Assembly: GCF_003073135.1 (NCBI RefSeq)
Contig: NZ_PGDQ01000021.1
Span: forward strand, 1 to 64,000
Length of the DNA stretch: 64,000 nt
Reading direction: 5' to 3'
Source: Euzebya rosea
Lineage (GTDB): Bacteria; Actinomycetota; Nitriliruptoria; Euzebyales; Euzebyaceae
In this document: positions 2,752 to 62,681 of the stretch, one piece after another
Numbering within the stretch: the stretch's first letter is position 1
How the letters are laid out: each line of letters opens with the position of its first letter
Made by a program: the position numbers and the translations under genes
The notes under the pieces: model-generated
The model's database searches: none
What the model saw: the letters and a program-made list of their open reading frames with translations, nothing else
What the model was told of the DNA's origin: nothing

Positions 2752-5070
2752 TCAGCCGGGGCCGGAGCGGTACACGTCCCATCCGCCGTAGACGAACTGG
2801 TGGGTGTCGTCGCCGGCGTGCAGGGTGGCCAGGTGGTCCAGCACCACAGTGCCGTCGTTGGCGACGTCGGAGCGAAACGGACAGTTGTTGGCGTGCTCGA
2901 CGGGGTCGACGTCGATGCGGTCGAGGGTCCCCTCGGCGACGGACCAGCGGTACACCCCGCACCCTGCCCCGTCGCCCGAGAGGGTCCGGAAGCTGGCGAA
3001 GACGACCCACTCGCCGTTGGGCGAGACCTGGGGGTTGGCCGACAGGCGGGTGCCCTGTCCCTCCCCGCCGGGGCTGACCAGCGTGGTCGTCCCGGCGGTG
3101 CGGTCGCGGAGGTACACCTGGTCCGGCAGCGTCGCCGGCGGGTTCACGAGGTCTGCCCCCTCGTGGGCGAAGGCCACGAACCGGCCGTCGTGGCTGATGC
3201 CGATCTCGTCAGGCAGGTTGAACTCCGTCGCCGTGCTGGCGGTGCCGTCAGGGGTGACCGAGACCAGCTCCAGCGTGCCGGTGGTGCGGTCCAACACGTA
3301 GGCGTCGGTGGCGGTGTTGGTGTCCAGCGGCAGCAGCGACGCGCTGGTCATGAAGGCTATCCAGCGCCCGTCGCCGGACAGCATCGGCCGGTGGCTGCCC
3401 TCCGCCTCGACCGGCTCGCCGTCGGGAGTGGCGACGTAGCCGATCTCCCCGCTGTCGAGGTCGTGCCACCAGTACCAGTAGCACGAGCAGGATGTCGGGC
3501 GGCCGACAGACCCCTGGGAGACGTAGGTGACCACCGACCCGTCCTCGTCGAGGGAGGGGTGGTCCACGTAGTTGCCTGGAGTGCCCTCGATGTCGAATGA
3601 GACCGCCCGGGTGCTGCCCGTTGCCAGGTCGCGCACGTAGGCGGTGCGTGAAGCGTCGACGTCCTGCCCGGCGAGGGTCGGGTCTTCGCTGGTGAACGCC
3701 ACGACCTGCCCGTTGCCGGACACGTGCACGCTCGAGGAATCACCGCTGGCCGGCTGACCCGACGGGGTGGTGTCCAGCATCTCCGTGCCATCGGGGGTCA
3801 CGAGGTAGGCGTGGTACCGCTCCTCGGTGGGGTCGGCGAGGCCTGCGACGGGGCCGTCGCTGACGAAGGCCACGACGGTGCCGTCGCCGGAGACGGCCGG
3901 CGCGAACCCGCCGGTGGCCGTCCCGTCGGCGTCGGTGCTCAGCAGCTCCAGCGGTCCGGCTGCTCCGGTGTCGGGTGGCAGGCCGAGGGTGACGCGGGCC
4001 TCTTCGCAGAGCGAGGGGACGACGACACAGGTGAGGACCGGTCCCCCGTCGCCGGGGACGACGGCGTAGCCGGATTCGGCGTACGTCGGGTCGGTGACGC
4101 CGTCGCGCAGCCAGTCGAGGGTGGCCGGCGGCAGGGTGTCGCCGGTGGCCAGCACGATGGGGGCGTCCAGCGAGGCGGCGTGGGCCGCTGCGGCGAACCC
4201 GCCGGCCCAGGCGTCGGCGGTCTGGCCCTGCACGACCACGACGTGGTCGGCGTCCGCTGCGGTCGGGGCGCCGAGCTTGTCGGCGACGGCGAGGGCGGTC
4301 TCGGCCCGGCTGTTGCCGGCGAGGCGTTCGGTGGTGATGCCCATGTCGCGGATCTGCTGCTCGACGGCGGCGGCGATGGCCGCGGTGCCGCCCATGATCT
4401 CGACCTGCTGGATGCCGGCCTCGGTCAGGTAGGTGCGGGTGGCCTCGGTGAGGGTGTCGGACTGGGTCAGCAGCACCGGCCAGCCCATCTCCGCCGACAT
4501 GCCGCCGGCGGCGATGGAGTCGGCGAAGCCCTGGGTGGGGTCGGTCGAGCCCTCGGAGGGAAATGCACGAGCCAGGATGGCGGTGTCGGCAGCGCCGGCG
4601 TCGGTCCGGGCGATGGTGATGGCGGTGTCGAACCGCGACCCGCCGGCCCGTCGCTCGACGTCGAGCCCCATGTCACGCAGCTGCTGCTCGACGGCGGGCT
4701 GGACGGCGGCCTCGCCGCCCAGGACCACCGCACGGGAGGGCGCGAGCCGCTCGATCTCCTCCACGACCTCGTCTGGGACGGGGCCGGCGGAGGGCACGAG
4801 GAGCAGCGGCGAGCGGGACTGCAGGACGCCGGAGGCAAGGGCGTCGGCGAAGTTGTCGTCCCGCCCGATGAGGACGGTGTCGAGGGCGTCGAAGGTGGTG
4901 ACCTGGCTGAGGGCCACGGCGATGTCGACGTTGGACGGTGGGGTCTCGGCCTTGATGACCGAGATCGTGTCGGACGGCTGGGATGACGACGGTGCAGGTA
5001 CCCCAAGCACGGCTAGACACACAGCCGCGACCACGACCCCCGCAACGTCGCGTGAGGATGCGACGTTCAT
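2752..5070 (-). CDS. secreted CWB2-repeat / beta-propeller protein
   Basis: Exported surface protein of 772 residues. Residues 1-30 form a signal peptide. Three cell-wall-binding repeat 2 units follow (about 45-350); recognisable features are IGRDDNFADALASGV, VVLGGEAAV and the Arg-x-Ala-Gly...Arg...Thr-Ala signatures. From about 365 to the end there is a TolB/PD40-like beta-propeller, with repeated blades such as SGDGTVVAFVSDGP, SGNGQVVAFTSEDP, SGDGRWIAFMTSAS and SPNGEWVVFAS. CWB2 units in Gram-positive bacteria bind anionic wall polymers, so the protein is probably displayed on the wall with the propeller exposed. It lies between smc and the sulfotransferase gene. The partner of the propeller is unknown. 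Confidence 0.88.
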   Translation of the reverse strand: MNVASSRDVAGVVVAAVCLAVLGVPAPSSSQPSDTISVIKAETPPSNVDIAVALSQVTTFDALDTVLIGRDDNFADALASGVLQSRSPLLLVPSAGPVPDEVVEEIERLAPSRAVVLGGEAAVQPAVEQQLRDMGLDVERRAGGSRFDTAITIARTDAGAADTAILARAFPSEGSTDPTQGFADSIAAGGMSAEMGWPVLLTQSDTLTEATRTYLTEAGIQQVEIMGGTAAIAAAVEQQIRDMGITTERLAGNSRAETALAVADKLGAPTAADADHVVVVQGQTADAWAGGFAAAAHAASLDAPIVLATGDTLPPATLDWLRDGVTDPTYAESGYAVVPGDGGPVLTCVVVPSLCEEARVTLGLPPDTGAAGPLELLSTDADGTATGGFAPAVSGDGTVVAFVSDGPVAGLADPTEERYHAYLVTPDGTEMLDTTPSGQPASGDSSSVHVSGNGQVVAFTSEDPTLAGQDVDASRTAYVRDLATGSTRAVSFDIEGTPGNYVDHPSLDEDGSVVTYVSQGSVGRPTSCSCYWYWWHDLDSGEIGYVATPDGEPVEAEGSHRPMLSGDGRWIAFMTSASLLPLDTNTATDAYVLDRTTGTLELVSVTPDGTASTATEFNLPDEIGISHDGRFVAFAHEGADLVNPPATLPDQVYLRDRTAGTTTLVSPGGEGQGTRLSANPQVSPNGEWVVFASFRTLSGDGAGCGVYRWSVAEGTLDRIDVDPVEHANNCPFRSDVANDGTVVLDHLATLHAGDDTHQFVYGGWDVYRSGPG

Positions 5071-26738: not shown

Positions 26739-27760
26739 CCTCGTGCCTCCTCCATGCCGTGGAACTCCGACTTGGGAGATCGTCCCATGAGGGCCACGGC
26801 CATGTCCTGCGGGTCGAGCCCATCGTGGAGGACACGGACGACGTGCTCCACGATCGGCATCTCGACATCGTGGTCCCGCGCGATGCGTGCGATCGCGGGG
26901 GACGACTTCACTCCTTCTGCCACCATGTTCATCTCGTCGATGATCGTCGCGAGGGGCCGTCCCCGGCCCAGCTGCTCGCCGACGTGGCGGTTGCGCGACT
27001 GGGTGCTGGTGCACGTGGCGACCAGGTCGCCCATGCCGGCCAGCCCGGCGAAGGTCATGGCCCGTCCGCCGAGCGCGAGGCCCAGGCGGGTCATCTCCGC
27101 CAGGCCGCGGGTCAGCAGCATCGCCTTGGTGTTCTCGCCGTAGCCCATCCCGTCGGCCATGCCGGCGGCGAGGGCGATGGCGTTCTTGACGGCACCGCCC
27201 ACCTCCACGCCGGTGCGGTCGGGGTTGGTGTAGACCCGGAACCACGGGGTGTGGCAGATCGCCTGCACCCGGGCGCAGATCGCCTCGTCGGGCCCGGCCA
27301 CGACCGTCCCGGACGGGAAGCGCTGGGCGCACTCGCGGGCCAGGTTCGGCCCGCTGGCGACGACCGCGCGCTCGTCGGGCAGGTCCCAGGCGTCGCGGAT
27401 GACCTCGCTGGCCCAGCGGCCCGTGTCCAGCGCGATGCCCTTGACCAGGCTGACCGCCACGGCGTCGCGCGGGACCAGGGCACGCCATGCGGCCAGGGAG
27501 TCGACGAGGGCGTGGGAGGGGACGGCGAGGACCACGATGTCGGCACCCGCCAGCGCCTCCTCCGGGTCGGGGGTGGCCCGCAACGCCTCGTTCAGCCCGA
27601 TGTCGGGCAGGTACTCGGGGTTGCCGAGGCCCGCGTTGATCGTGTCGGCCACCTCGGGCCGGCGGGCCCACAGCCGCACCTCGGCGCCGGTGTCGGCGCA
27701 GATCGACCCGAAGGCGGTTCCCCAGGACCCCGCGCCCATGACCGCAACGGCGGTGGTCAC
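26735..27760 (-). CDS. gpsA: glycerol-3-phosphate dehydrogenase [NAD(P)+]
   Basis: Reduces dihydroxyacetone phosphate to sn-glycerol-3-phosphate for phospholipid synthesis. Length 341 residues. Motifs: VMGAGSWGTAFG (Rossmann loop), KGIALDTGRWASEVI, SGPNLARECA, GGAVKNAIALAAGMADG (catalytic Lys), AGMGDLVATCTS. The GTG at 27760 has GGAGG about seven bases upstream. Together with plsX it supplies phospholipid precursors. Its promoter region is shared with the divergent CWB2 gene. Confidence 0.96.
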   Translation of the reverse strand: MTTAVAVMGAGSWGTAFGSICADTGAEVRLWARRPEVADTINAGLGNPEYLPDIGLNEALRATPDPEEALAGADIVVLAVPSHALVDSLAAWRALVPRDAVAVSLVKGIALDTGRWASEVIRDAWDLPDERAVVASGPNLARECAQRFPSGTVVAGPDEAICARVQAICHTPWFRVYTNPDRTGVEVGGAVKNAIALAAGMADGMGYGENTKAMLLTRGLAEMTRLGLALGGRAMTFAGLAGMGDLVATCTSTQSRNRHVGEQLGRGRPLATIIDEMNMVAEGVKSSPAIARIARDHDVEMPIVEHVVRVLHDGLDPQDMAVALMGRSPKSEFHGMEEARG

Positions 27761-27912
27761 GGCTGGCCTCCTCGGGGTCGACTGGCAGAACGCGGGTGCG
27801 TCGTCGGCGGGTCGCCGCCGGGTCCGCAGTCTACGGGCGAGGCCGACCTCGACGGCAGCACCCACGCTGGCCCGACCGGCCGACCCGTCGCGCCGGACCG
27901 TGTCGCCGACCC

Positions 27913-27978
27913 GACAATGTGGAGCGACAGTCCACTTCTCCTGTCCATTGTCCCACCGTCGGGTTACCCTGCCGACGG
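27913..27978 (+). promoter_or_regulatory. promoter region with two inverted repeats before the beta-helix/CWB2 gene
   Basis: GACAATG (27913-27919) and CATTGTC (27946-27952) form a perfect 7-bp inverted repeat, with a GACAG/CTGTC pair nested inside. A second pair, CCGTCGG (27956-27962) and CCGACGG (27972-27978), encloses a -10-like TACCCT (27965-27970). The start codon is 52 bases downstream. The layout suggests an operator overlapping a promoter. The regulator is unknown. Confidence 0.4.
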
Positions 27979-28021
27979 TCGGCCCGGGAGGGGTCGTCGC
28001 GGTCACCCGAAAGGTCTCTTC

Positions 28022-31000
28022 GTGCACAGACGTCTTCTGCTGCTAGCCCTCGTTCCCTGCCTGCTGGCGTCGCTGCTGGTCGCTGCCCCCGTGGCGGCGC
28101 ACCCCGAACGGCCGGCGGAGTTCCCCGCCGGGGCGCTGGGCACACCGGCGTACCGCTTCGACGGGGACACCCACGTGGTGTGCAAGCCCGACACCGAGGC
28201 GCGCCTGCAGGTGCTGCCGGATGCGCTGCGCACCCGCAACGAGGCGCTGCTGGAGGACTGTGCGTTCGAGCACATCAACGAGGCGATCGCCGAGGTCGAG
28301 GCCAACGGCGAGCAGGGCAGCCGCATCCTGGTGATGCCCGGCGTGTACCGCGAGGAGCCCTACGTGGGCGCCGTCGACCCGGCGTGCCTCGAGATCGAGC
28401 CCCCCGCCGACGACGAGGGCGGCGGCATCATGGACATCGGCGCCATCCCCCTGCCGCCGATGCAGCAGCACGAGCTGTACCAGCAGGAGGACCCCACCGA
28501 GGACGAGGGCAACAACAACCCCGGCGCGCTGGTGCTGTCCTACGAGCAGCAGCGGGAGTGCCCGTTCCTGCAGAACCTCATCCCGATCCTCGGCGACACC
28601 GACGGTGACTCGGTCTGCGACAACGCGCTGTGCAACCTGCAGATCGAGGGCACCGGCGCCTCACCGCTTGACACCGTGATCGACGGCGACTACTCCCAGC
28701 TCAACGGCATCCGCGCCGACCGGGCCGACGGGCTGTACCTGCGGAACTTCACCGTCCAGCGGTTCGAGTTCAACGCCGTGTACATCATCGAGTCCGACGG
28801 GTTCGTCTTCGAGGAGATGATCACCCGCTGGAACGACGAGTACGGGTTCCTGTCCTTCGCCGTGGACCACGGGCTGTACCAGAACTGCGAGGGGTACGGC
28901 AACGGCGACTCCGCCATCTACCCGGGGTCGGCGACCGACCTCAACCAGGACGCGGGCCTCTTCGACGACAACGAGGGCCTGCGCTTCGGCACCGAGATCC
29001 GCGGCTGCCGTGGCCACCACAACACCCTCGGCTACTCCGGCACCGCCGGCAACTCCGTGCACACCCACCACAACGAGTTCGACCGCAACCTCGTCGGCGC
29101 GGCGACCGACTCGTTGTTCCCCGACCACCCCGGCCTGCCGCAGGACCACGCCTACTTCCACGACAACCTGTTCCACTCCAACAACACCGGCTACTACGAG
29201 CGTGACCTGCTGGCCGGCAAGTGCACCGGTCCGTTCAGCGAGCGCGACTACGACGAGGGGATCGTCTGCCCGGTGGTGCCCCTTCCCGTCGGGACCGGCC
29301 TGGTGCTGGCCGGCGGCAACTACAACCTCTTCGAGAACAACCGCGTCTACGACAACTGGCGCCAGGGCACCTTCCAGTTCTTCGTGCCGGCGACCCTTCG
29401 TGGCGAGGACGCCCCCGACAAGCAGTTCGACACCTCCAACTTCAACACCTGGCGCGGGTCGACCTACGGCGTGAACATCAACGGCCTGGCCCAGCCCAAC
29501 GGCACCGACATGGTGTGGGACGGCGAGGGCGAGGGGAACTGCTGGACCGACAACGTCGGCATCGACGGTGGGGCCCCCACCACCGCTGTCGGCGACGGGT
29601 CGGGTGTGTTCCAGGTCCCGGGCATCCCGCTGCCCGGATGTGACCCCCGTCCGCCGTTCACGCCCGGACCGGGCATCGTCACGGCCGCGCAGTGCGCCTC
29701 CTACTCCCGTGGCAGCGAGCCCAACCCGCCCGGCTGCAACTGGTTCTCCACCCCGGAGCCGCCGGCGGACCGCACCCCGGAGGGGCCGACGGTCGACCGC
29801 CTGGCCGGTGCCGAGCGCATCGAGACCAACCTGATGACCTCCCGTGAGGCCTTCCCGGGTCAGTCCGCCAACGTCGTGCTGGCGACGGCCGACAACTTCG
29901 CCGACGCCCTTGCCGGTGCCCCGCTGGCGGCGCACCTCGAGGCCCCCCTGCTGATCACCCCGACCGGCGGCCTCGACGACCGCGTCGCCGAGGAGATCAC
30001 CCGCTTGGGTGCCCAGCGTGTCTGGCTGCTCGGTGAGACGGCCGCCCTGTCCGACACCGTGGTCGCCGACCTCGAGGCGCTGGGGATCCGCGAGATCACC
30101 CGCGTCGGCGGCGCGAACCGCTTCGAGACGGCCACCCTGATCGCCGGGATGATCGGCTCCGGCAACGCCTTCCTCGTGGAGGGTGGCGACTTCGCCTCCG
30201 CGCTGTCGGCCTCCGCCGTCGGTGCGCTCGTCGGACGGCCCGTGCTGCTGACGTCGGCCGACACCATCTCCCCCGAGCTCGAGACCTTCCTCGAGGGCGG
30301 CCTGATGGTCGACATCCGCCTGGTCGGGTCGGCCGTGTCCGACGCGGTCATGGCGCAGCTGCCGGTCGTGCAGCCCCGCATCGTCGACATCGAACGGACC
30401 GCAGGGGCCGACGCGGTGGAGACGTCCGCGATGATGGCCGAGCTCGGCGTGCAGATCGGCCAGGACGACACGGAGCTGTGGATCGCCACGGTCGACAACT
30501 GGCCGGACGCGCTCGGCGCAGCCGCGGCTGCCGCCGTCGACGAGGGCGTCCTGCTGCAGGTGCCGGCCTCGCTGGACGGCGAGTCGCCGGTGCTCGACTA
30601 CATCACCGAGAAGAACTCGATCCTCGAGCACATCCGCATCGCCGGTGGGACCGCCGCCGTCAGCCAGGAGGTGGAGGACACCATCCTCACCGCCACCGGC
30701 GGCGTCACCGGCGACGTCCGCGGAGACCGGTCGCACGGGACCTTCGTGTCCACCGGATCCTTCGCCCCGCTCCCCGACGTCGACCAGGCCTACGCCGGCG
30801 TCACCGGCACCGCCACGATGGTCCGGACCATCCACGGCACCACCGAGGTCGAGGTCCTGGTCGAGGGCATGCCGGCCAACACCTTCGCGCCGGTCCACCT
30901 TCACGTGGACTCGTGCGACGTGGCCGGCGGTGACCACTTCCAGTTCGTGCCCGGTGGATCGATGATGCCGCCCAACGAGATCCACCCGCGCTTCACCTCC

Positions 31001-31306
31001 GACGCGGTCGGCGTGGGTCGCGGCACCGACACGGCGTTCGCCATCGCCGGCAACGACGCCCGCTCGGTGGTCATCCACGACCCCGACGGCAACAAGGTCG
31101 CCTGCGCGGAGTTCGACGGACCCGAGATCCCCGACGGTGCGGCGACCACCCCGGCGCTGGCCTCGTTCATGGCACCGGAGCTCGCGATGGGCGACGACGA
31201 CGGCGGCATGCCGGCGTGGCTGTGGTACGCGGTGGCCGGCTGGATCATGGTCAGCCTGCTGCTGGGCTGGGTCCCGCGTCGGGCCCGTGCCCGTCGGGCT
31301 GGCTGA
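28022..31306 (+). CDS. secreted beta-helix / CWB2 / SOD-like protein with C-terminal membrane anchor
   Basis: A 1094-residue exported protein. A signal peptide (about 1-25, ending VAAHPE) precedes a large region with right-handed beta-helix character (about 40-560; for example LYLRNFTVQRFEFNAVYIIE and repeated N/G-rich turns). Three CWB2 units follow from about 590 (DRLAGAERIETN) to 905. Next comes a Cu/Zn-superoxide-dismutase-like domain (PVHLHVDSC, GGDHF, NEIHPRF, SVVIHDPDGNKVACAEF). The end is a membrane helix (AWLWYAVAGWIMVSLLLGWV) plus an Arg-rich tail. GTG 28022 follows AAAGG. Beta-helix folds often bind or cut polysaccharides; activity is not proven here. Confidence 0.85.
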   Translation: MHRRLLLLALVPCLLASLLVAAPVAAHPERPAEFPAGALGTPAYRFDGDTHVVCKPDTEARLQVLPDALRTRNEALLEDCAFEHINEAIAEVEANGEQGSRILVMPGVYREEPYVGAVDPACLEIEPPADDEGGGIMDIGAIPLPPMQQHELYQQEDPTEDEGNNNPGALVLSYEQQRECPFLQNLIPILGDTDGDSVCDNALCNLQIEGTGASPLDTVIDGDYSQLNGIRADRADGLYLRNFTVQRFEFNAVYIIESDGFVFEEMITRWNDEYGFLSFAVDHGLYQNCEGYGNGDSAIYPGSATDLNQDAGLFDDNEGLRFGTEIRGCRGHHNTLGYSGTAGNSVHTHHNEFDRNLVGAATDSLFPDHPGLPQDHAYFHDNLFHSNNTGYYERDLLAGKCTGPFSERDYDEGIVCPVVPLPVGTGLVLAGGNYNLFENNRVYDNWRQGTFQFFVPATLRGEDAPDKQFDTSNFNTWRGSTYGVNINGLAQPNGTDMVWDGEGEGNCWTDNVGIDGGAPTTAVGDGSGVFQVPGIPLPGCDPRPPFTPGPGIVTAAQCASYSRGSEPNPPGCNWFSTPEPPADRTPEGPTVDRLAGAERIETNLMTSREAFPGQSANVVLATADNFADALAGAPLAAHLEAPLLITPTGGLDDRVAEEITRLGAQRVWLLGETAALSDTVVADLEALGIREITRVGGANRFETATLIAGMIGSGNAFLVEGGDFASALSASAVGALVGRPVLLTSADTISPELETFLEGGLMVDIRLVGSAVSDAVMAQLPVVQPRIVDIERTAGADAVETSAMMAELGVQIGQDDTELWIATVDNWPDALGAAAAAAVDEGVLLQVPASLDGESPVLDYITEKNSILEHIRIAGGTAAVSQEVEDTILTATGGVTGDVRGDRSHGTFVSTGSFAPLPDVDQAYAGVTGTATMVRTIHGTTEVEVLVEGMPANTFAPVHLHVDSCDVAGGDHFQFVPGGSMMPPNEIHPRFTSDAVGVGRGTDTAFAIAGNDARSVVIHDPDGNKVACAEFDGPEIPDGAATTPALASFMAPELAMGDDDGGMPAWLWYAVAGWIMVSLLLGWVPRRARARRAG

Positions 31307-54352: not shown

Positions 54353-55294
54353 TCAGCCGGAGGCTGCGATCCAGTCGATGACGTGGGCGGTCGCGACCGC
54401 GTCCTCCACGTCGATCGGCGGCCGAATGCCCTGCGTGGCGTGCTCGAAGGCCTCGAGGAGTCGTTCCCAGGGGTCGGCACGCCACGTGCCGATGACCTCG
54501 TCGGAGCGCAGCAGCGCGGCCTGGTCGCCGGGGCCCGCGGTGAAGGGACGAGGCATGCGCAGCGTCCCGTCGGAGCCGACGATCTCCAGGGTGGAGTGAC
54601 GGGCCGAGTCGAACGAGGCGTGCAGCGCCGCGGTGGCCCCCGACGGGAAACCCATGACGGCCGAGGTCGTCGCGTCGGCCCCCGACGCCCAGCGGCGGGT
54701 GACCGCCCGGACGACGTCGGGCTCCTCGCCCAGGACCCAGCGGATCAGGCTGACCAGGTCCGCTCCGACGTCCAGCAGGGCACCGCCACCGCGTGAGGGG
54801 TCGGCGTGGTAGCTGTCGGCGTCGGTCATGGGATAGGCGGACGTGGCCGAGACCAGCCGGACCGCACCGATGCCGCCGGAGCGAACCAGCTCCAGCAGCG
54901 CGGCGGTACGCGGGTGGAACCGCAGCGGGAGGGCCTCCATGAGGGTCAGGCCGGCCCCGGACGCCGCGGCAGCGGCCATGCGGGCGGCGCCGTCGGCGTC
55001 GATGGAGAGGGGCTTGAGGCACAGGACGTGCTTGCCGGCGTGCAGCGCCTCGGTGACCCAGTGCTCGCGTTCGGAGGTGGGGAGGGCAACGAAGACCGCG
55101 TCGACATCGCGCGAGACGAGGACCTCGGCGTGGTCCCGACGGGCTCGCCGGACCCCCTGGGTGGCCGCGAACTGCTGGGCAGCAGTCAACGTCTCGGCGG
55201 AGACCACGGCCAGGTCGTGACCGACCGAGCGCATGGCCGGGCCGACGGATTCCTCCGCCGTCGTGTTCACTCCAAGGATTCCCCAGCGCAGCAT
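54353..55294 (-). CDS. Gfo/Idh/MocA family oxidoreductase
   Basis: A 313-residue NAD(P)-dependent oxidoreductase. N-terminal Rossmann motif MLRWGILGVNTTAEESV, then VFVALPTSEREHWVTEAL and the family Lys motif KHVLCLKPLS (E-K-P variant L-K-P), and the C-terminal substrate domain with GGGALLDVGADLVSLIRW. ATG 55294 gives the usual start. Sugar or polyol derivatives are the typical substrates. Confidence 0.88.
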   Translation of the reverse strand: MLRWGILGVNTTAEESVGPAMRSVGHDLAVVSAETLTAAQQFAATQGVRRARRDHAEVLVSRDVDAVFVALPTSEREHWVTEALHAGKHVLCLKPLSIDADGAARMAAAAASGAGLTLMEALPLRFHPRTAALLELVRSGGIGAVRLVSATSAYPMTDADSYHADPSRGGGALLDVGADLVSLIRWVLGEEPDVVRAVTRRWASGADATTSAVMGFPSGATAALHASFDSARHSTLEIVGSDGTLRMPRPFTAGPGDQAALLRSDEVIGTWRADPWERLLEAFEHATQGIRPPIDVEDAVATAHVIDWIAASG

Positions 55295-55390: not shown

Positions 55391-57685
55391 TCAGAGCAGC
55401 GCGGCGAGGGTCGACTCGGCCCCGAGGCCGACGGCGGCCTCCCCGCCGACGATCCGGATCCGGGTCACACCCGCGTCGACCAGCACGGCCTCGGCGTCCG
55501 GGGCCAGCCCGCCGTCGTCGACCAGCACGAGCGTCCCGTCCCGCCGCGCGGCGATCCCGGCCGACAACGCGTCGGGGAACCTCGTGGCGCTGGCGGCGTA
55601 GACCGTGGGGCGCAGGCCGGCTTCCCGGGCGAACGCCGCCGCCGTGGCGATCCGGTCCGGCCCGGCGATCCTCGTGACGGCCAGCCCCTGCCTGGCGATC
55701 TCCGCCGCGACGTCCTCGCTGACCGCCGCTGGGCCACCGGCGATGACCACCGACGACACCCCGAGGTCGGTGACCGCCTGCCCGCACGTCGGCGACAGCG
55801 CCGTCGGGGCGGTCAGCAGCACCGGGATCCCGAGCACACCCGCGGCGAGGGCGTCCGGGAACCGATCGGCCGTGGCGACGACCACCCGGTCGGCCCGGTC
55901 CGCCAGCGTCCGCGCGACCCCGGCGGCGAGGTCAACGGGGTCGTCGGCGTCGACGCGGCTGGTCGGTGCGATCCCGGCCAGCACCCCCTCGATGCCGGCC
56001 GACACCTGCCCCGTCGAGCCGGCGATGACGATCCGGTCGGGACCACGTCGGCGCAGCTCCGCCTCCGCGACCTCGTCCAGCGCCTCCCCCAGCACCAGCA
56101 CGAGGGCGTCGGCCAGCGCCGCCCCGGCCAGGGCGCCGGCCCACTCCAGCCCGCTGGCGACGACGACCGTCCCGCCCGTCCCGCCCCCGTGCGCCGACAC
56201 CGCTGCGGCGGTCCGGACACGGTTGCTGCCGGCGATGCGGCCGAGGTCCACGACCCGGAACTGGCTCATCATGTCGTGGTCCTCGTGCTCGAGGACGTGG
56301 CAGTGGTACATGAAGTCGCCGAGGTGGTCGGCGAACCGGGCGTCCAGCTCGACGGTCTCGAACGCGCGGACGAGCACGGTGTCCTTCCACCCCTGGTCCT
56401 CGGGTCGCAGCGGGGCCACGGCGCCGGCGGTGGTGGTCCGTCCGCGGACGAGGAAGCTGACCAGGTGCAGGTGGATGGGGTGGCCGAAGGAGGTCGTGTT
56501 GACCAGCCGCCAGCGCTCGACCGCACCCAGCCGCGCGTACACGTCGCGTACGGCGTCGTCGTACCCGTGCCCGTTGAGCAGGAAGCGGCCGCCGTGTTCG
56601 TCGAGGGTGATGGTGCGGACGACCTCCGGTGGGTCGAGGGCGGGGGCGGGCCCCAGTTCGCTCGGCAGGATCGCAGGCTCCGTCGGGCCGCCGGTCACGT
56701 CGACGGCCATCAGGTCGCCCACCCCCGCGTCGACGATGACCACCCGTTCCCCGTCGGCCATCCGGGACAGGTCCAGCAGCAGGTCGACGCGCTCGGACGG
56801 CCACACCTCCACCTCTCCCCTGGTGGCCGGGGCGGCCAGCAACCCCCCGTCGGTGCCGACCTGCACCAGCGGCAGGCCGTCGGCCCGTCCCAGCCGGTAG
56901 GGCCGGGCGTTGGACGCGTTGAGGATCCGCAGCCGCAGCAGGCCCGGCTCGACCGCCAGCACCGGCCGGTCGACGCCGTTGACCAGCACGACGTCGCCGA
57001 GGAACCCGCTGTGCCCGTCGGGGTCGTAGACCAGCTGGCCGCCCGCGTCGAAGGTCTTGTCCGTCAACACCACGGGGATGTCGCGCTCGTCGCCGTTGGG
57101 CAGGCCCAGGGCGTCGTGGGCCGGATCGATCAGCAGGTAGCTACCGGCGAGGCCCCGGTAGACCCGTTCGGCGGTCCGCATCAGCAGGTGGTCGTGGTAC
57201 CAGAGGTGGGCCGCCCGCTGCGCGTTGTCGAAGGTGTACCGGCGCTGCTCGCCGGCGGGGATCCGGTCCCGGACGTGCCCGTCGTGCACCGCCGCGACGT
57301 GCGCGCCGTGCAGGTGCAGCACCGCCGGCTCGTCGAGCTCGTTGACCACGTCGATGTCCACGACCTGCCCGGGCCGGGCGATGACGGTCGGTCCCGGGAA
57401 GGCCCCGCCGAAGGTCAGCATGGTGGTCGTCACGCCGGGCATCAGCTGGACGGCCGTCCGGTTCAGCGGCAGCACGACCGGCTCGGTCCCGGGGCGCACC
57501 GCCGACGGGATCGGCAGGGGGGCCGTGAAGGGTTCGGCGCGCAGTGTCGCGGGGGTGCGACGGCGGGCCGGCAGCGCGCAGCGGAGGGGTGGATCGGAGC
57601 GGTTCGAGACGGACCCCCGGTACCCGAACTGGAGGTGCCCTGCCCCTCCGACGATGCCCCGGATCAGCGATCGCCGAGAAAGCAC
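55391..57685 (-). CDS. multicopper oxidase fused to CWB2 wall-binding repeats
   Basis: A 764-residue protein from GTG 57685. The N-terminus has twin arginines (SRRSLIRGIVGG), suggesting Tat export. The oxidase part (about 55-480) contains all copper motifs: HLHGAH (His124, His126), WYHDH (His164, His166), GHPIHLH (His402, 405, 407) and HCHVLEHEDHDMM (His461, Cys462, His463, His467, Met472). These define a trinuclear cluster and a type 1 site with axial Met. Residues 487-764 are three CWB2 units ending RIRIVGGEAAV. The fusion should display a laccase/bilirubin oxidase-like enzyme on the wall. Divergent from the cupredoxin-CWB2 gene. Confidence 0.9.
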   Translation of the reverse strand: MLSRRSLIRGIVGGAGHLQFGYRGSVSNRSDPPLRCALPARRRTPATLRAEPFTAPLPIPSAVRPGTEPVVLPLNRTAVQLMPGVTTTMLTFGGAFPGPTVIARPGQVVDIDVVNELDEPAVLHLHGAHVAAVHDGHVRDRIPAGEQRRYTFDNAQRAAHLWYHDHLLMRTAERVYRGLAGSYLLIDPAHDALGLPNGDERDIPVVLTDKTFDAGGQLVYDPDGHSGFLGDVVLVNGVDRPVLAVEPGLLRLRILNASNARPYRLGRADGLPLVQVGTDGGLLAAPATRGEVEVWPSERVDLLLDLSRMADGERVVIVDAGVGDLMAVDVTGGPTEPAILPSELGPAPALDPPEVVRTITLDEHGGRFLLNGHGYDDAVRDVYARLGAVERWRLVNTTSFGHPIHLHLVSFLVRGRTTTAGAVAPLRPEDQGWKDTVLVRAFETVELDARFADHLGDFMYHCHVLEHEDHDMMSQFRVVDLGRIAGSNRVRTAAAVSAHGGGTGGTVVVASGLEWAGALAGAALADALVLVLGEALDEVAEAELRRRGPDRIVIAGSTGQVSAGIEGVLAGIAPTSRVDADDPVDLAAGVARTLADRADRVVVATADRFPDALAAGVLGIPVLLTAPTALSPTCGQAVTDLGVSSVVIAGGPAAVSEDVAAEIARQGLAVTRIAGPDRIATAAAFAREAGLRPTVYAASATRFPDALSAGIAARRDGTLVLVDDGGLAPDAEAVLVDAGVTRIRIVGGEAAVGLGAESTLAALL

Positions 57686-57852
57686 GACACGACGATATCC
57701 CAAGGGTTACCGTCATGGGTCTCGGGCGGCGACGGTGTGGCGGCACCAAGGCTGAGGGGCTTCCCCCGACTCCGTGCGAGGAGGGATTGACACCACCCCG
57801 GCAACGGGCGGGCGACCGCATTTTTCCGGGGACACGAACGAAGGGGACTGTC

Positions 57853-59952
57853 ATGCACAGATTCGTCCGATCCGCCACGGCCGTGATGGCTGCGGCGCTA
57901 CTGATCCTGTCGGTCCTGGCGGGGCCCGCGTCGGCCCAGACCACCGAGATCAGCGTCTTCGAGTTCGCCTACGATCCGTACGACACCGTGGTGGAGGTCG
58001 GCACGACCGTCGAGTGGACCAACAACGGCACCGCGACCCACACGGTCACCGCGGCCGACGGTTCCTTCGACCGTCTCCTCAACCCCGGCGACAGCTTCGA
58101 GCTGACGACGGAGGAAGCGGGGCAGGTCAACTACTTCTGTCGCTTCCACGGCGGTCCGGGTGGCGGGCAGAACGCCTACCTGACGGTGTACGAGGAGGGG
58201 GCGGAGCCGCCCGAACCGCAGGTCGCACCGAGCGCGGACTTCACCTCGGTGACCGCCACGGACGACAGCAACGTGGCGGCGGCGATCGCGTGGACCTCCC
58301 TACTGGACGGTCCGCAGGAGACGGTGCTGCTGGGTCGTGACGACGACTTCGCCGACCTGCTCGCCGCCGGGGCGACCGGCCGCCCGTTCCTGGTGACCCC
58401 GACCGACACCCTCGACGACCGGGTCGCTGCCGAGCTGCAGCGCCTGAACGCCCAGCAGGTCGTGGTCGTGGGCGGCACCGCTGCCGTCAGCGAGGACGTC
58501 GTGGGTGAGCTCGAGGCGGCAGGGTTCACGGTGACCCGCGTCGCAGGTGCCACCCGCATCGAAACGGCCGTCGACCTTGCCGACCGGTTCTTCGTCGCCG
58601 GTGGTGGGTTCGCCCAGCCGCCGTCGGACGCGCCGCGGCCCGGCGCGATCATCGCCCGCGCGTTCGGCACCGAGGACAACCCGACGGCCGGGTTCGCGGA
58701 CTCGCTGGGTGCGGCGTCGGCTGGTGCCAACCTCGGCATCCCGATCCTCGTGGCCGGGCCCGACGGGCTGCCCGCAGGCGTCGGGTCCTTCCTGGCCGCC
58801 AACGGCATCGGTCACGTGGCGGTCGTCGGTGGCGAGGCCGCCGTGCCCTCGGCGGTGACCGACGGCCTCGACGAGCTCGGCGTGACCTGGGACCGGGTCG
58901 CCGGCGCCAGCCGCGACGGCACCGCTGCCGCGCTGATGGGGTACCTGGACGGTCAGGGTGCGCGGTACGGCAACGTCGTGCTGGTCGACGGGTTCAACGA
59001 CAACGCGTGGGCACAGGGCTTCGGCGCCTCCGTGCTCGGGTCGGCCGTGCTGCTGACCAACGGGCCGGACGTTCCTGCCGTCACCCAGGACGCCCTGAAC
59101 GACTTCTTCGGGTCGGTCCTGGCGAACGGGCTCAACGTTCGATGCGGCCCCGGGATCGACGAGGCCGCCTGTGACCTGGTCGGCACCGTGCTGGAAGCCG
59201 AGTACATCAGCCCGGCCAGCCTGATCGGCGTCCTCGAGGGCACCAACGAAACGGCGGAGGGGCACCCGGTCGCCAACGGCATCGGCGGGGTGACCCGCAC
59301 CGAGGACGGCACCATGTGCTGGATCTACTCCGTCGTGCTGCTGGAGGACGTCACCGCAGCCCACATCCACAGGGCCGCAGCCGGGGAGGACGGCGACGTC
59401 GTCATCCCGCTGGAGGCGCCCCTCGTCGGTGAGGCAGAGGCCAACGGCTGCCTGCCCGACGCCGACGCCGACCTGGTGGCCGAGATCTTCGCCAACCCCG
59501 GCGAGTTCTACATCAACGTCCACTCCATGGAACACCCCGCCGGGGCGGTCCGCGACAACCTGTTCCCCTTCGACGACTTCTACGCCGCCGAGCTCTCCGG
59601 GGACCAGGAGGTGCCCGACCCGGGCGCCATGATGGCCGGAGGCGTGACGTTCCTGACCACCAACGACGACGACGACATGTGCCACGTCACCTTCTGGGGT
59701 GGCCTCGAGAGCGCCCCGACCGCTGCCCATATCCACTCGGGTGGTCCGGGTGAGGCGGGCGACGTCCTGATCGGCCTGACCGTGTCCCCGGTCGGGATCG
59801 GTTCGCACAGTGACTGCGTGGAGGACACCGACGGCGACGCGTTGGCGACCTTCCGAGCAGCCCCGGCCGACCACTACGTGAACCTCCACACCGCGGAGTT
59901 CCCGGGCGGCGCCCTCAGGGGCCAGGCCAACCCCCAGTGGGTCCTCCCGTAG
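57853..59952 (+). CDS. secreted cupredoxin / CWB2 / double CHRD protein
   Basis: A 699-residue exported protein; signal peptide 1-28 (ASA-QT cleavage). A cupredoxin domain (30-113) has the type 1 copper ligands His63 (ATHTVTA), Cys96 and His99 (FCRFHGG); the usual axial Met is absent and Gln106 may take its place. Three CWB2 units lie at about 135-430. Two CHRD domains follow (AHIHRAAAGEDGDVV...FYINVHSMEHPAGAVRDNL; AAHIHSGGPGEAGDVL...YVNLHTAEFPGGALRGQ). AAGGGG six bases before ATG 57853 is the ribosome site. Divergent from the multicopper oxidase-CWB2 gene. Confidence 0.9.
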   Translation: MHRFVRSATAVMAAALLILSVLAGPASAQTTEISVFEFAYDPYDTVVEVGTTVEWTNNGTATHTVTAADGSFDRLLNPGDSFELTTEEAGQVNYFCRFHGGPGGGQNAYLTVYEEGAEPPEPQVAPSADFTSVTATDDSNVAAAIAWTSLLDGPQETVLLGRDDDFADLLAAGATGRPFLVTPTDTLDDRVAAELQRLNAQQVVVVGGTAAVSEDVVGELEAAGFTVTRVAGATRIETAVDLADRFFVAGGGFAQPPSDAPRPGAIIARAFGTEDNPTAGFADSLGAASAGANLGIPILVAGPDGLPAGVGSFLAANGIGHVAVVGGEAAVPSAVTDGLDELGVTWDRVAGASRDGTAAALMGYLDGQGARYGNVVLVDGFNDNAWAQGFGASVLGSAVLLTNGPDVPAVTQDALNDFFGSVLANGLNVRCGPGIDEAACDLVGTVLEAEYISPASLIGVLEGTNETAEGHPVANGIGGVTRTEDGTMCWIYSVVLLEDVTAAHIHRAAAGEDGDVVIPLEAPLVGEAEANGCLPDADADLVAEIFANPGEFYINVHSMEHPAGAVRDNLFPFDDFYAAELSGDQEVPDPGAMMAGGVTFLTTNDDDDMCHVTFWGGLESAPTAAHIHSGGPGEAGDVLIGLTVSPVGIGSHSDCVEDTDGDALATFRAAPADHYVNLHTAEFPGGALRGQANPQWVLP

Positions 59953-60283: not shown

Positions 60284-60360
60284 GATCGGGTGGGTCGGGC
60301 GTCGGACATGGTGAGATGCCACCACTTGTCCACGACCACCGACCCCGAGCCGTGCCGCCG

Positions 60361-60849
60361 GTGACCACGACGTCGCTGGAGCAGGCCTTCGCTGCCCACC
60401 ACGCCGGCGCCGTCCGGCTGGCCTACCTGCTGTGCGGCGACCGCGAGCAGGCCGAGGACGTCGTCGCCGGCGTGTGGCTGAAGATGCACCGCCGGCTCGA
60501 GCGGGGGCCCGTCGACGACGTCGGTGCCTACGTCCGGCGGGCGGTCGTCAACGAGGTCAACTCGTGGTTCCGCAAGCTGGGCGTCCGCCGGCGCGAGGCC
60601 GCCGTGCGCAAGGGCGACGACCGAGGCACGTACGGCCACGACGACCGGATCGCCGACGCCGACGCGGTGCTGCGGGCGCTCGACCGGCTGCCGGCCCGGA
60701 CCAGGGCGGCCGTGGTGCTGCGCTACTACGAGGACCTGTCGGTGGCCGACACCGCCGCGGCGCTCGGGGTCAGCGAGGGGACGGTCAAGTCCAGCGTGTC
60801 CCGCGGGCTGACGACGATGCGAACGATCATGGAGGAGGACGAGCGATGA
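60361..60849 (+). CDS. SigE-family RNA polymerase sigma factor
   Basis: A 162-residue group 4 sigma factor. Region 2 includes AVRLAYLLCGDREQAEDVVAG; region 4 includes DRLPARTRAAVVLRYYEDLS, VADTAAALGVSEGTVKSSVS. GTG 60361 gives the typical V-T-T start; ATG 60316 is an alternative. It overlaps the downstream gene in an ATGA junction, the classic sigma/anti-sigma arrangement. Confidence 0.9.
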   Translation: MTTTSLEQAFAAHHAGAVRLAYLLCGDREQAEDVVAGVWLKMHRRLERGPVDDVGAYVRRAVVNEVNSWFRKLGVRRREAAVRKGDDRGTYGHDDRIADADAVLRALDRLPARTRAAVVLRYYEDLSVADTAAALGVSEGTVKSSVSRGLTTMRTIMEEDER

Positions 60850-62681
60850 CCGACCGCCACAGCGACGACCGGACCAGCGGCGGGGAGCCCGTGTCCGCCT
60901 TCGAGCAGCGACTGCGGGAGGGGTTGCACACCTCCGCGTCATCGGTCCAGCCCGCACCGGACGGCTGGCGGAGGGTGCAGGCCGGGCTACGGCGCCGACG
61001 AACCCTCCAGGTCGGCGGGTTCGCCGTGGCCGGGGCTGCGGCGGTGCTGGTCGGCGTGCTGGTGCTCGGCAACGTGCCCGAGACCGCCATCACCTTCGAC
61101 CCGGGCGTGGGGGCCTCGACCGCACCCGTGACCCCCACCACCGAGCAGGTCACGGCCGAGACCGCCGCGACCGTCGTGGACCCGGCCCAGGACGTACAGG
61201 CCGGCCCTCCCGGTGAGGTCGCCGCGGTGCTCTACGCCGACGTCGACGGGGTGCACATGATCACCCCGGACGGGACGGCGATCGCCACGGACGTGGTCGA
61301 GGTCAGCGGCCCGGTCACCGACATCGCCGTGCGTCCGGGCAGTACACCCGACGACGTCGTGCTGGTGGTCCGCACCGAGGACACCGACGGCTGCGGACAG
61401 CTGTGGTGGACCACGTTCGGCGTCGACCCGGGGTGGTCGACCGGCACCCAGCGGGACGGCGCCGACCTCGATGGAGTCGCGGTGTACGGCACCGAGAACA
61501 TCCTCGTCGACCCGGACTCGACCACCTGCGCCGGCGCACCGGTGTTCGCCAGCGACGGATCCGCGCTCGTGTGGCTGACCGACCCTGCGGGGTCCGGCGA
61601 CGCCGACACGGAGGTCCGGGCCGTCTCCTGGTCCGGCTCGTTCCCGGAAGGGGCAGTGCAGCGTGTGGCCACGTCGTTCCCGGGTGGCAGCCCCCACCCG
61701 GTGGAATGGACCGTGGTCCCCGGCCAGCCAGATGAGGGCATCCTGCACGTGCGCATGATCGGCCCCGATGGCGACGCGGCCGTCGAACCCGTTGGGGTCT
61801 CGCTCGTCGGCGACACGCTGTCGGTCGACGAGGTCCTGGCCCTGACCGGTCAGTCCGCCCGTGACATCCCGCGTGTGCTCGACACCGACGACGGCTGGGC
61901 GCTGGGTCGGCCGGCCACGCCGTTCCAGGACGGCGTCGAGGACGACCGGGAGGTCGTGTGGTCGTTGACCACCCTCAGCATCGACACCGTGGTCTCCGCG
62001 GACTCGGCCCTGTCGTGGGCGCCGGGCGAACCCCTCTACATGGACGGGCTGGGCGCCACGGTCGTCATGGGCACGGGTGGCCCGATGGTGCTCAGCACCC
62101 GCACCGGGTCGGGGGACGCCACCCGCTCGAACCTGCCGGTGGCGATCTCCGCTGCCCTGCTGGGCTCCGGCGACCCCGTCGACCCCCAACCCACCGATCC
62201 CGCCCGCGAGGGTGAGGACACCGAACCGGACGGCGGCAGTGAACCCACCACGCCCACGGAACCGACCGAGTCCTTCGAGCCCACCGAACCGACCGACCCC
62301 GCCGATCACGCCGATCAAGCCGATCAAGCCGATCAAGCCGATCAAGGCGTGCCGCCCGCCGCCATGGGTACGGCGTCAGCGATCCGCGACGCCGCCCTGG
62401 CCGGGGACTGGGAGGCCCTGCGGGCGCTCGTCCCGGCCGACGGATTCACCGCGAGCTTCGGGGGAACCGACGACCCGATCGCCTACTACCAGCAGCTGCA
62501 GGCCGAGGGCACCGATGTCCTCGGCATCCTCGCCGGTCTGCTGGACGGCCCCGCCACCGCCGTCCCCGACACCGACCTGTGGGCATGGCCACGCGAGTTC
62601 GTCGAGTCCGACGGGTACTACGACTGGCGGGTCGGCATCACGGCCGACGGCACCTGGCGGTACTTCGTGGCCGGGGACTGA
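60846..62681 (+). CDS. membrane protein, candidate anti-sigma factor
   Basis: A 611-residue single-pass membrane protein. A cytoplasmic N-terminus of about 54 residues resembles the helical start of SigE-linked anti-sigma proteins (SAFEQRLREGLHTSA, DGWRRVQAGLRRRR). A membrane helix is at 55-76. A large exported region with beta-propeller-like strands follows, then a Pro/Thr/Glu-rich linker with ADQ repeats (9-bp DNA repeats 62301-62345) and a C-terminal domain (AIRDAALAGDWEALRALVP). Overlap with the sigma gene suggests it controls that factor. No zinc-binding HxxxCxxC motif is seen. Confidence 0.78.
   Translation: MTDRHSDDRTSGGEPVSAFEQRLREGLHTSASSVQPAPDGWRRVQAGLRRRRTLQVGGFAVAGAAAVLVGVLVLGNVPETAITFDPGVGASTAPVTPTTEQVTAETAATVVDPAQDVQAGPPGEVAAVLYADVDGVHMITPDGTAIATDVVEVSGPVTDIAVRPGSTPDDVVLVVRTEDTDGCGQLWWTTFGVDPGWSTGTQRDGADLDGVAVYGTENILVDPDSTTCAGAPVFASDGSALVWLTDPAGSGDADTEVRAVSWSGSFPEGAVQRVATSFPGGSPHPVEWTVVPGQPDEGILHVRMIGPDGDAAVEPVGVSLVGDTLSVDEVLALTGQSARDIPRVLDTDDGWALGRPATPFQDGVEDDREVVWSLTTLSIDTVVSADSALSWAPGEPLYMDGLGATVVMGTGGPMVLSTRTGSGDATRSNLPVAISAALLGSGDPVDPQPTDPAREGEDTEPDGGSEPTTPTEPTESFEPTEPTDPADHADQADQADQADQGVPPAAMGTASAIRDAALAGDWEALRALVPADGFTASFGGTDDPIAYYQQLQAEGTDVLGILAGLLDGPATAVPDTDLWAWPREFVESDGYYDWRVGITADGTWRYFVAGD
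62301..62345 (+). repeat. five 9-bp tandem repeats
   Basis: GCCGATCAC followed by four copies of GCCGATCAA, encoding ADH-ADQ-ADQ-ADQ-ADQ in the linker of the candidate anti-sigma protein. Gain or loss of a unit would keep the frame. Confidence 0.9.

Follow-up and report, generated by a model that had tools for sequence, protein, structure and literature searches.

A divergent gene pair for a CWB2-bearing multicopper oxidase and a cupredoxin-CWB2-CHRD protein in Euzebya rosea, a possible wall-tethered copper redox pair

Do two divergent genes that each encode a copper protein with a predicted wall anchor serve one task at the cell surface, or are they independent neighbours? The question is raised by a locus in the 64,000-nucleotide stretch of Euzebya rosea DNA that was analysed here (the window), and the coordinates, divergence, domains and 167-bp spacing that an earlier note had given for the two genes all proved correct. 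The multicopper oxidase-CWB2 gene occupies positions 55391–57685 on the minus strand and encodes 764 amino acids from a GTG at 57685, and the cupredoxin-CWB2-CHRD2 gene (hereafter, the partner) occupies 57853–59952 on the plus strand and encodes 699 amino acids from an ATG preceded by an AAGGGGA ribosome-binding site. With the alternative start codon TTG (57703) the oxidase would be six amino acids longer, and both the GTG and the TTG are present in the sister species G022; the GTG is preferred because the twin-arginine motif is then N-terminal and because the gap in G022 is then also 167 bp. The intergenic region between the two starts (57686–57852) is thus of equal length in both species; a sigma-70 consensus scan of the locus found no promoter, and no terminator was found either. 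On the left, the pair is flanked by a Gfo/Idh/MocA oxidoreductase gene (54353–55285, minus strand, start uncertain) and on the right by a SigE-family ECF sigma gene (60352–60849) with a gene that overlaps its end (60846–62681), together spanning 60352–62681 on the plus strand; these are the left and right borders of an empty site in relatives. The overlapping gene encodes 611 amino acids with 62% identity in G022, matches no Pfam family and stands in the usual place of an anti-sigma factor.

By its domains, ligands and modelled fold, the minus-strand protein is a complete three-domain multicopper oxidase, with copper loading predicted. It carries Cu-oxidase_3 (PF07732; 57125–57454, minus strand; 1.4e-21) with the copper motifs HLH and WYHDH, Cu-oxidase_2 (PF07731; 56249–56587, minus strand; 1e-26) with the copper motifs HPIHLH and HCHVLEHEDHDM, and three CWB2 units (PF04122; 55412–56254, minus strand; 1.4e-25, three stretches). 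All copper ligands are present (H124, H126, H164, H166, H402, H405, H407, H461, C462, H463, H467 and M472), and these twelve residues (10 His, one Cys and one Met, in four copper motifs) are invariant across a 28-sequence alignment of relatives. A structure model built on the same alignment, with a pLDDT of about 80–97 over about residues 50–480, matched solved three-domain oxidases of the 8z59, CueO, SufI and CotA kind with Z of about 49–54; SufI was the top match, tied with others (Z 54.0), and 8z59 aligned over 422 residues at 1.7 A and 37% identity (Z 53.9). The oxidase scored far below every cut-off of the named NCBI subfamilies CueO, PhsA, FtsP and CopA, including the NCBIfam equivalogs for CueO (246.6 bits against a cut-off of 525), FtsP (196 against 581) and the aminophenol oxidase PhsA (204 against 950). 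It also lacks a CueO-type Met-rich segment, with eight Met in the oxidase domain and none in residues 331–380. The gene is under purifying selection relative to G022 (dN/dS 0.20). Several further proteins of the multicopper oxidase family are encoded in the same genome, so the paired oxidase is not the sole candidate for the oxidase activity of the organism.

The cupredoxin domain of the partner (57928–58224, plus strand; Cupredoxin_1, 1.7e-7) has His-Cys-His ligands (H63, C96 and H99) in cupredoxin spacing and a probable axial Gln106, which falls at or adjacent to the axial Met seen in G045 and G006, with gaps in the loop of the alignment leaving some doubt. Gln is found at this position in the window partner, the G022 copy and the paralogues of the genus, and Met in the copies of G045 and G006. 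Gln serves as the axial ligand in stellacyanin-like sites, generally with a lower potential as the result. With every oxidase ligand in place and Gln106 standing for Met in the cupredoxin, the earlier description of the copper sites as complete or near-complete is a fair one. The claim of three CWB2 units in each protein is likewise borne out by Pfam and our own profile: in the partner (58237–59115, plus strand), Pfam matched two stretches and our profile identified a third, degenerate unit at residues 344–421 (20 bits). Two CHRD domains follow (59215–59940, plus strand), matched by PF07452 over its cut-off in two stretches (5.6e-41, 140.5 bits), each with AHIH and NVH/NLH histidines. Relative to G022 the partner is under purifying selection (dN/dS 0.35), with a fast-evolving CHRD part (65% identity, dN/dS 0.47). 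A single-sequence structure model of the partner was set aside (pLDDT 38.7), and in a search for plasmid carriage of the partner the matches were limited to the CHRD part at less than 40% identity.

The CHRD domains may contribute to metal binding. An HxH and a later NxH-type histidine are kept in 16 of the 17 bacterial CHRD domains compared. The solved CHRD domains of human chordin are superoxide dismutase (SOD)-like barrels in which the SOD metal histidines are not conserved (PMC13382577); the bacterial copies belong to the same family and differ in keeping the HxH and the later H. Profile comparison of bacterial CHRD with SOD using hhalign was not significant (probability of about 1% or less), and a demonstrable SOD relationship by this route was rejected, although the short local alignment, at that same probability, places the HIH motif of CHRD opposite the HVH motif of SOD1. 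Bacterial CHRD may have a copper site, which is best treated as a lead, not a result, and the conserved histidines raise a testable question for a domain whose microbial role has been open since it was named in 2003.

The earlier note held that both proteins are exported, which stands for the partner, with a clear Sec-type signal peptide (judged by eye), and is likely for the oxidase, with an orthologue-like Tat motif and a poor hydrophobic core. The N-terminus of the oxidase reads MLSRRSLIRGIVGGAGHLQFGYRGS and includes the twin-arginine motif LSRRSLIRG; the motif region MLSRRSLIRGIVGGAG (57626–57685, minus strand) probably forms a Tat signal, its hydrophobic core being weak, at the same place as the Tat signals of orthologues. 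Ordinary Tat signals occupy the matching position in G045 (LSRRSLLRNGVVAGLGLSAFRPVALA, LSRRSLLRN), G023 (LSRRRLLATGAVGAAALAIPGRAAA, LSRRRLLAT) and G002 (LTRRQLLQMGLVGGAAVLLPW, LTRRQLLQM); all share the twin-arginine motif, and the core in the window oxidase is less hydrophobic than in these three. Export by the predicted Tat route is considered likely because of the motif in orthologues and because CWB2 units would presumably be useless inside the cell. Two other readings of this region were discarded. A frameshift was rejected after comparison of three frames in two genomes, none of which had a better hydrophobic core, and special constraint at the nucleotide level was rejected because the 96-nt identical run against G022 at the 5' end of the oxidase gene is matched by runs of 101, 97 and 89 nt in ordinary coding parts.

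Conservation of the arrangement bears directly on whether the two genes belong together. In G022, a member of the same genus, the divergent layout is identical, with protein identities of 90% for the oxidase and 78% for the partner. In G023, also of the same genus, the site is empty and the sigma-factor gene directly adjoins the Gfo/Idh gene (L177: 4103–4585 and 4772–5653), and in G024 the Gfo/Idh gene is present and the pair is absent beside it. Since the flanks abut without the pair in G023 and the pair is absent in G024, the two genes came or went together, as a two-gene unit. A related arrangement is found in G045, from another order and family of the class, in which the oxidase-CWB2 gene lies between a divergent cupredoxin-CWB2 gene and a convergent cupredoxin-CWB2-CHRD2 gene. 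The product of the divergent gene (L122:1733–2428) lacks the second His ligand (YFCRFDVDKGMVG) and may not hold copper in the normal way. In a tree of partner sequences, the copy in the pair grouped with the G045 copy and that of G006, apart from the paralogues of the genus, with support (92/93) below the mark of the tree tool itself; in the oxidase tree, the window, G022 and G023 sequences were joined (99/99) and the placement of G045 was unresolved. The earlier note would have given up its proposal had the genes never co-occurred in relatives, and the proposal survives this check: we found the divergent pair in G022, its joint absence from G023 and G024, and the related arrangement in G045. 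Overall, the pair is real and conserved, and its genes are probably more than chance neighbours.

The link between oxidase and partner is nevertheless not obligate, as one sister has the oxidase alone and paralogues of the partner lie elsewhere. G023 encodes an oxidase-CWB2 protein (45% identity) at another site, beside a gene for a CWB2 propeller protein; no CHRD match was found in its genome and no cupredoxin beside this oxidase, so the oxidase does not need this partner. The neighbour, directly upstream on the same strand (L121:8575–10671), is a CWB2-triplet protein with an NHL-like propeller. The paralogues of the partner are far from any oxidase of this type, and G022 also carries a CWB2-CHRD2 copy without cupredoxin. 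Three members of the genus, including the organism of the window, carry a second cupredoxin-CWB2-CHRD2 gene (L128:1685–3736, on contig C11; also L130 and L131), which in each case immediately follows a gene for a GMC oxidoreductase.

More widely, 1.85 Mb of sequence from 123 loci that encode an oxidase of this type (with some genomes represented twice) was surveyed with our own cupredoxin and CHRD profiles. Each separate gene for a cupredoxin or CHRD protein that was found directly adjoins the oxidase gene; overall, a cupredoxin gene stands next to the oxidase in only a minority of oxidase loci. Among haloarchaea the adjacent cases are two divergent pairs and one in tandem; the remainder are G272 (a convergent cupredoxin gene), G066 (a CHRD gene in tandem), G022 and G045. 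Actinobacteria other than the window organism are thus represented as well as haloarchaea. In an additional search of haloarchaea, three of the ten genomes having the oxidase showed the divergent pair. In a placement simulation on the class data, adjacency in at least one lineage of the class other than this one arose by chance with a probability of 0.022, which is small and not negligible, and two cupredoxin matches beside the G045 oxidase with a probability of about 2e-5. The former is the fair figure for recurrence in the class, because the window pair itself was chosen for its adjacency. Other combinations of these domains were also seen: a CHRD-domain gene immediately followed by that of a multicopper oxidase, in a distant actinobacterium (L171:3596–6485); a recurring association of a cupredoxin-beta-helix protein with a two-domain multicopper oxidase, found in the genome of the window (L183:5615–8683) and at L159, L161 and L162, and also in a genome of another family; and a cupredoxin fused to a two-domain oxidase, like cupredoxin-fused nitrite reductases, on contig C16 of the genome of the window (L181:5164–6735).

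The shared anchor, which the earlier note had offered as an argument for a shared task, is weak evidence, because CWB2, with at least 150 matches in the genome, is among its commonest surface modules. Among related oxidases outside the class, CWB2 was found in none of 80 loci from other genomes. Two further CWB2-triplet proteins are encoded in the window (26759–31306 and 2752–5070); a beta-helix is present in one of them and PD40 repeats in the other. A 2,673-amino-acid protein on the minus strand of contig C8 of the same genome (L182:3812–11833) has ThuA, glucose/sorbosone dehydrogenase, CBM6, PKD and cupredoxin domains and three CWB2 units, and so combines dehydrogenase and cupredoxin in a single polypeptide with a wall anchor.

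The reading that we prefer, tentatively and at a little under even confidence, is that the two form a copper redox pair tethered to the wall, with the cupredoxin feeding electrons to an O2-reducing oxidase of the laccase type. Domains, ligands, divergence, conservation and joint presence and absence are observed; oxidase export, copper loading, electron flow and substrate are inferred. The CWB2 triplets would hold both proteins in the same wall layer. The oxidase would be exported folded by Tat, would carry four coppers and would reduce O2 to water, with electrons entering one at a time at its T1 copper. The partner would be exported by Sec, and its blue-copper domain would supply the oxidase with electrons drawn from a phenol, a reduced metal or another dehydrogenase bound to the wall. 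The Gln axial ligand would make the cupredoxin a donor of lower potential, such that the flow of electrons would run towards the oxidase. A role as spacer or binding arm is proposed for the CHRD domains, which may also bind metal of their own. The function proposed in the earlier note (surface electron transfer serving metal or phenol oxidation, or copper defence) is plausible, and if the pair works as proposed it would represent a compact, genetically defined surface redox chemistry in a monoderm bacterium. A far more speculative extension, which we regard as improbable, is a copper-only extracellular electron-transfer layer without cytochromes in the actinobacterial wall. Several proteins tethered by CWB2 would form a chain in it, namely this oxidase, the proteins that combine cupredoxin and CHRD, and the giant protein with ThuA, sugar dehydrogenase and cupredoxin parts; electrons from wall-bound dehydrogenases or external metals would pass by way of cupredoxins, and perhaps of CHRD domains that bind copper, to the O2-reducing oxidase.

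We consider it unlikely that the pair instead handles copper, with the cupredoxin, perhaps aided by CHRD, buffering wall copper or delivering it to the oxidase, which would convert Cu(I) to the less toxic Cu(II) in the manner of periplasmic CueO. The oxidase is near CueO in fold and sequence, the conserved HxH and H of bacterial CHRD could bind copper and the cupredoxin and oxidase genes are adjacent; however, no copper pump or efflux, sensor or chaperone gene was found among the genes nearest the pair, the CueO score and Met-rich segment are wanting as described above, and a Tat-exported oxidase is normally loaded before export. Doubtful to the same degree is the view that the two wall proteins work independently and have just a regulatory region in common, with the oxidase acting alone on phenols or metals, the partner serving as an adhesin or scaffold, and joint regulation as the sole reason for their adjacency. 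Their joint presence and absence at one site, the recurrence of a cupredoxin or CHRD gene beside this oxidase type in several lineages and the cupredoxin His-Cys-His ligands kept under purifying selection argue against independence, which is favoured by the abundance of CWB2 in the genome, the unpartnered G023 oxidase, the partner paralogues without an oxidase, the G022 CWB2-CHRD2 copy without cupredoxin and the replacement of Met by Gln. Lastly, a structural, non-enzymatic role of the SufI/FtsP kind is very improbable despite the tied top match to SufI, a protein without copper ligands, as all twelve ligands are present and invariant here and the FtsP score is far short of its cut-off.

Laccase-type oxidases and cupredoxins are individually well known, and in the literature searched we found no paper on either being tethered to the wall by CWB2, nor on a cupredoxin-CWB2-CHRD fusion. 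The nearest precedent for the anchor is provided by the cell wall proteins of Clostridioides difficile, in which three CWB2 motifs are needed for anchoring (PMC4973711). The window proteins are alike in having three tandem CWB2 units each and differ in their cargo, a copper oxidase or a cupredoxin-CHRD; they keep the C. difficile-type P[ILV][ILV][LV] motif only partly (by eye), and wall binding here is predicted. The Sulfurimonas oxidase 8z59, CotA laccase, bilirubin oxidase and CueO share with the window oxidase the fold, all copper ligands and the last motif HCHxxEHEDHDMM, and differ from it in having no wall anchor. Attachment of a related oxidase to the wall by a triplet module is seen in a fusion protein of G002 (L123:8281–10209), in which three SLH motifs replace CWB2 and beside which no cupredoxin neighbour was found. 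The haloarchaeal oxidase-halocyanin pairs (L055, L060, L197 and L198), which differ in having no CWB2, no CHRD, a Met axial ligand and an archaeal envelope, share with the pair described here a cupredoxin gene divergently adjacent to that of a related oxidase.
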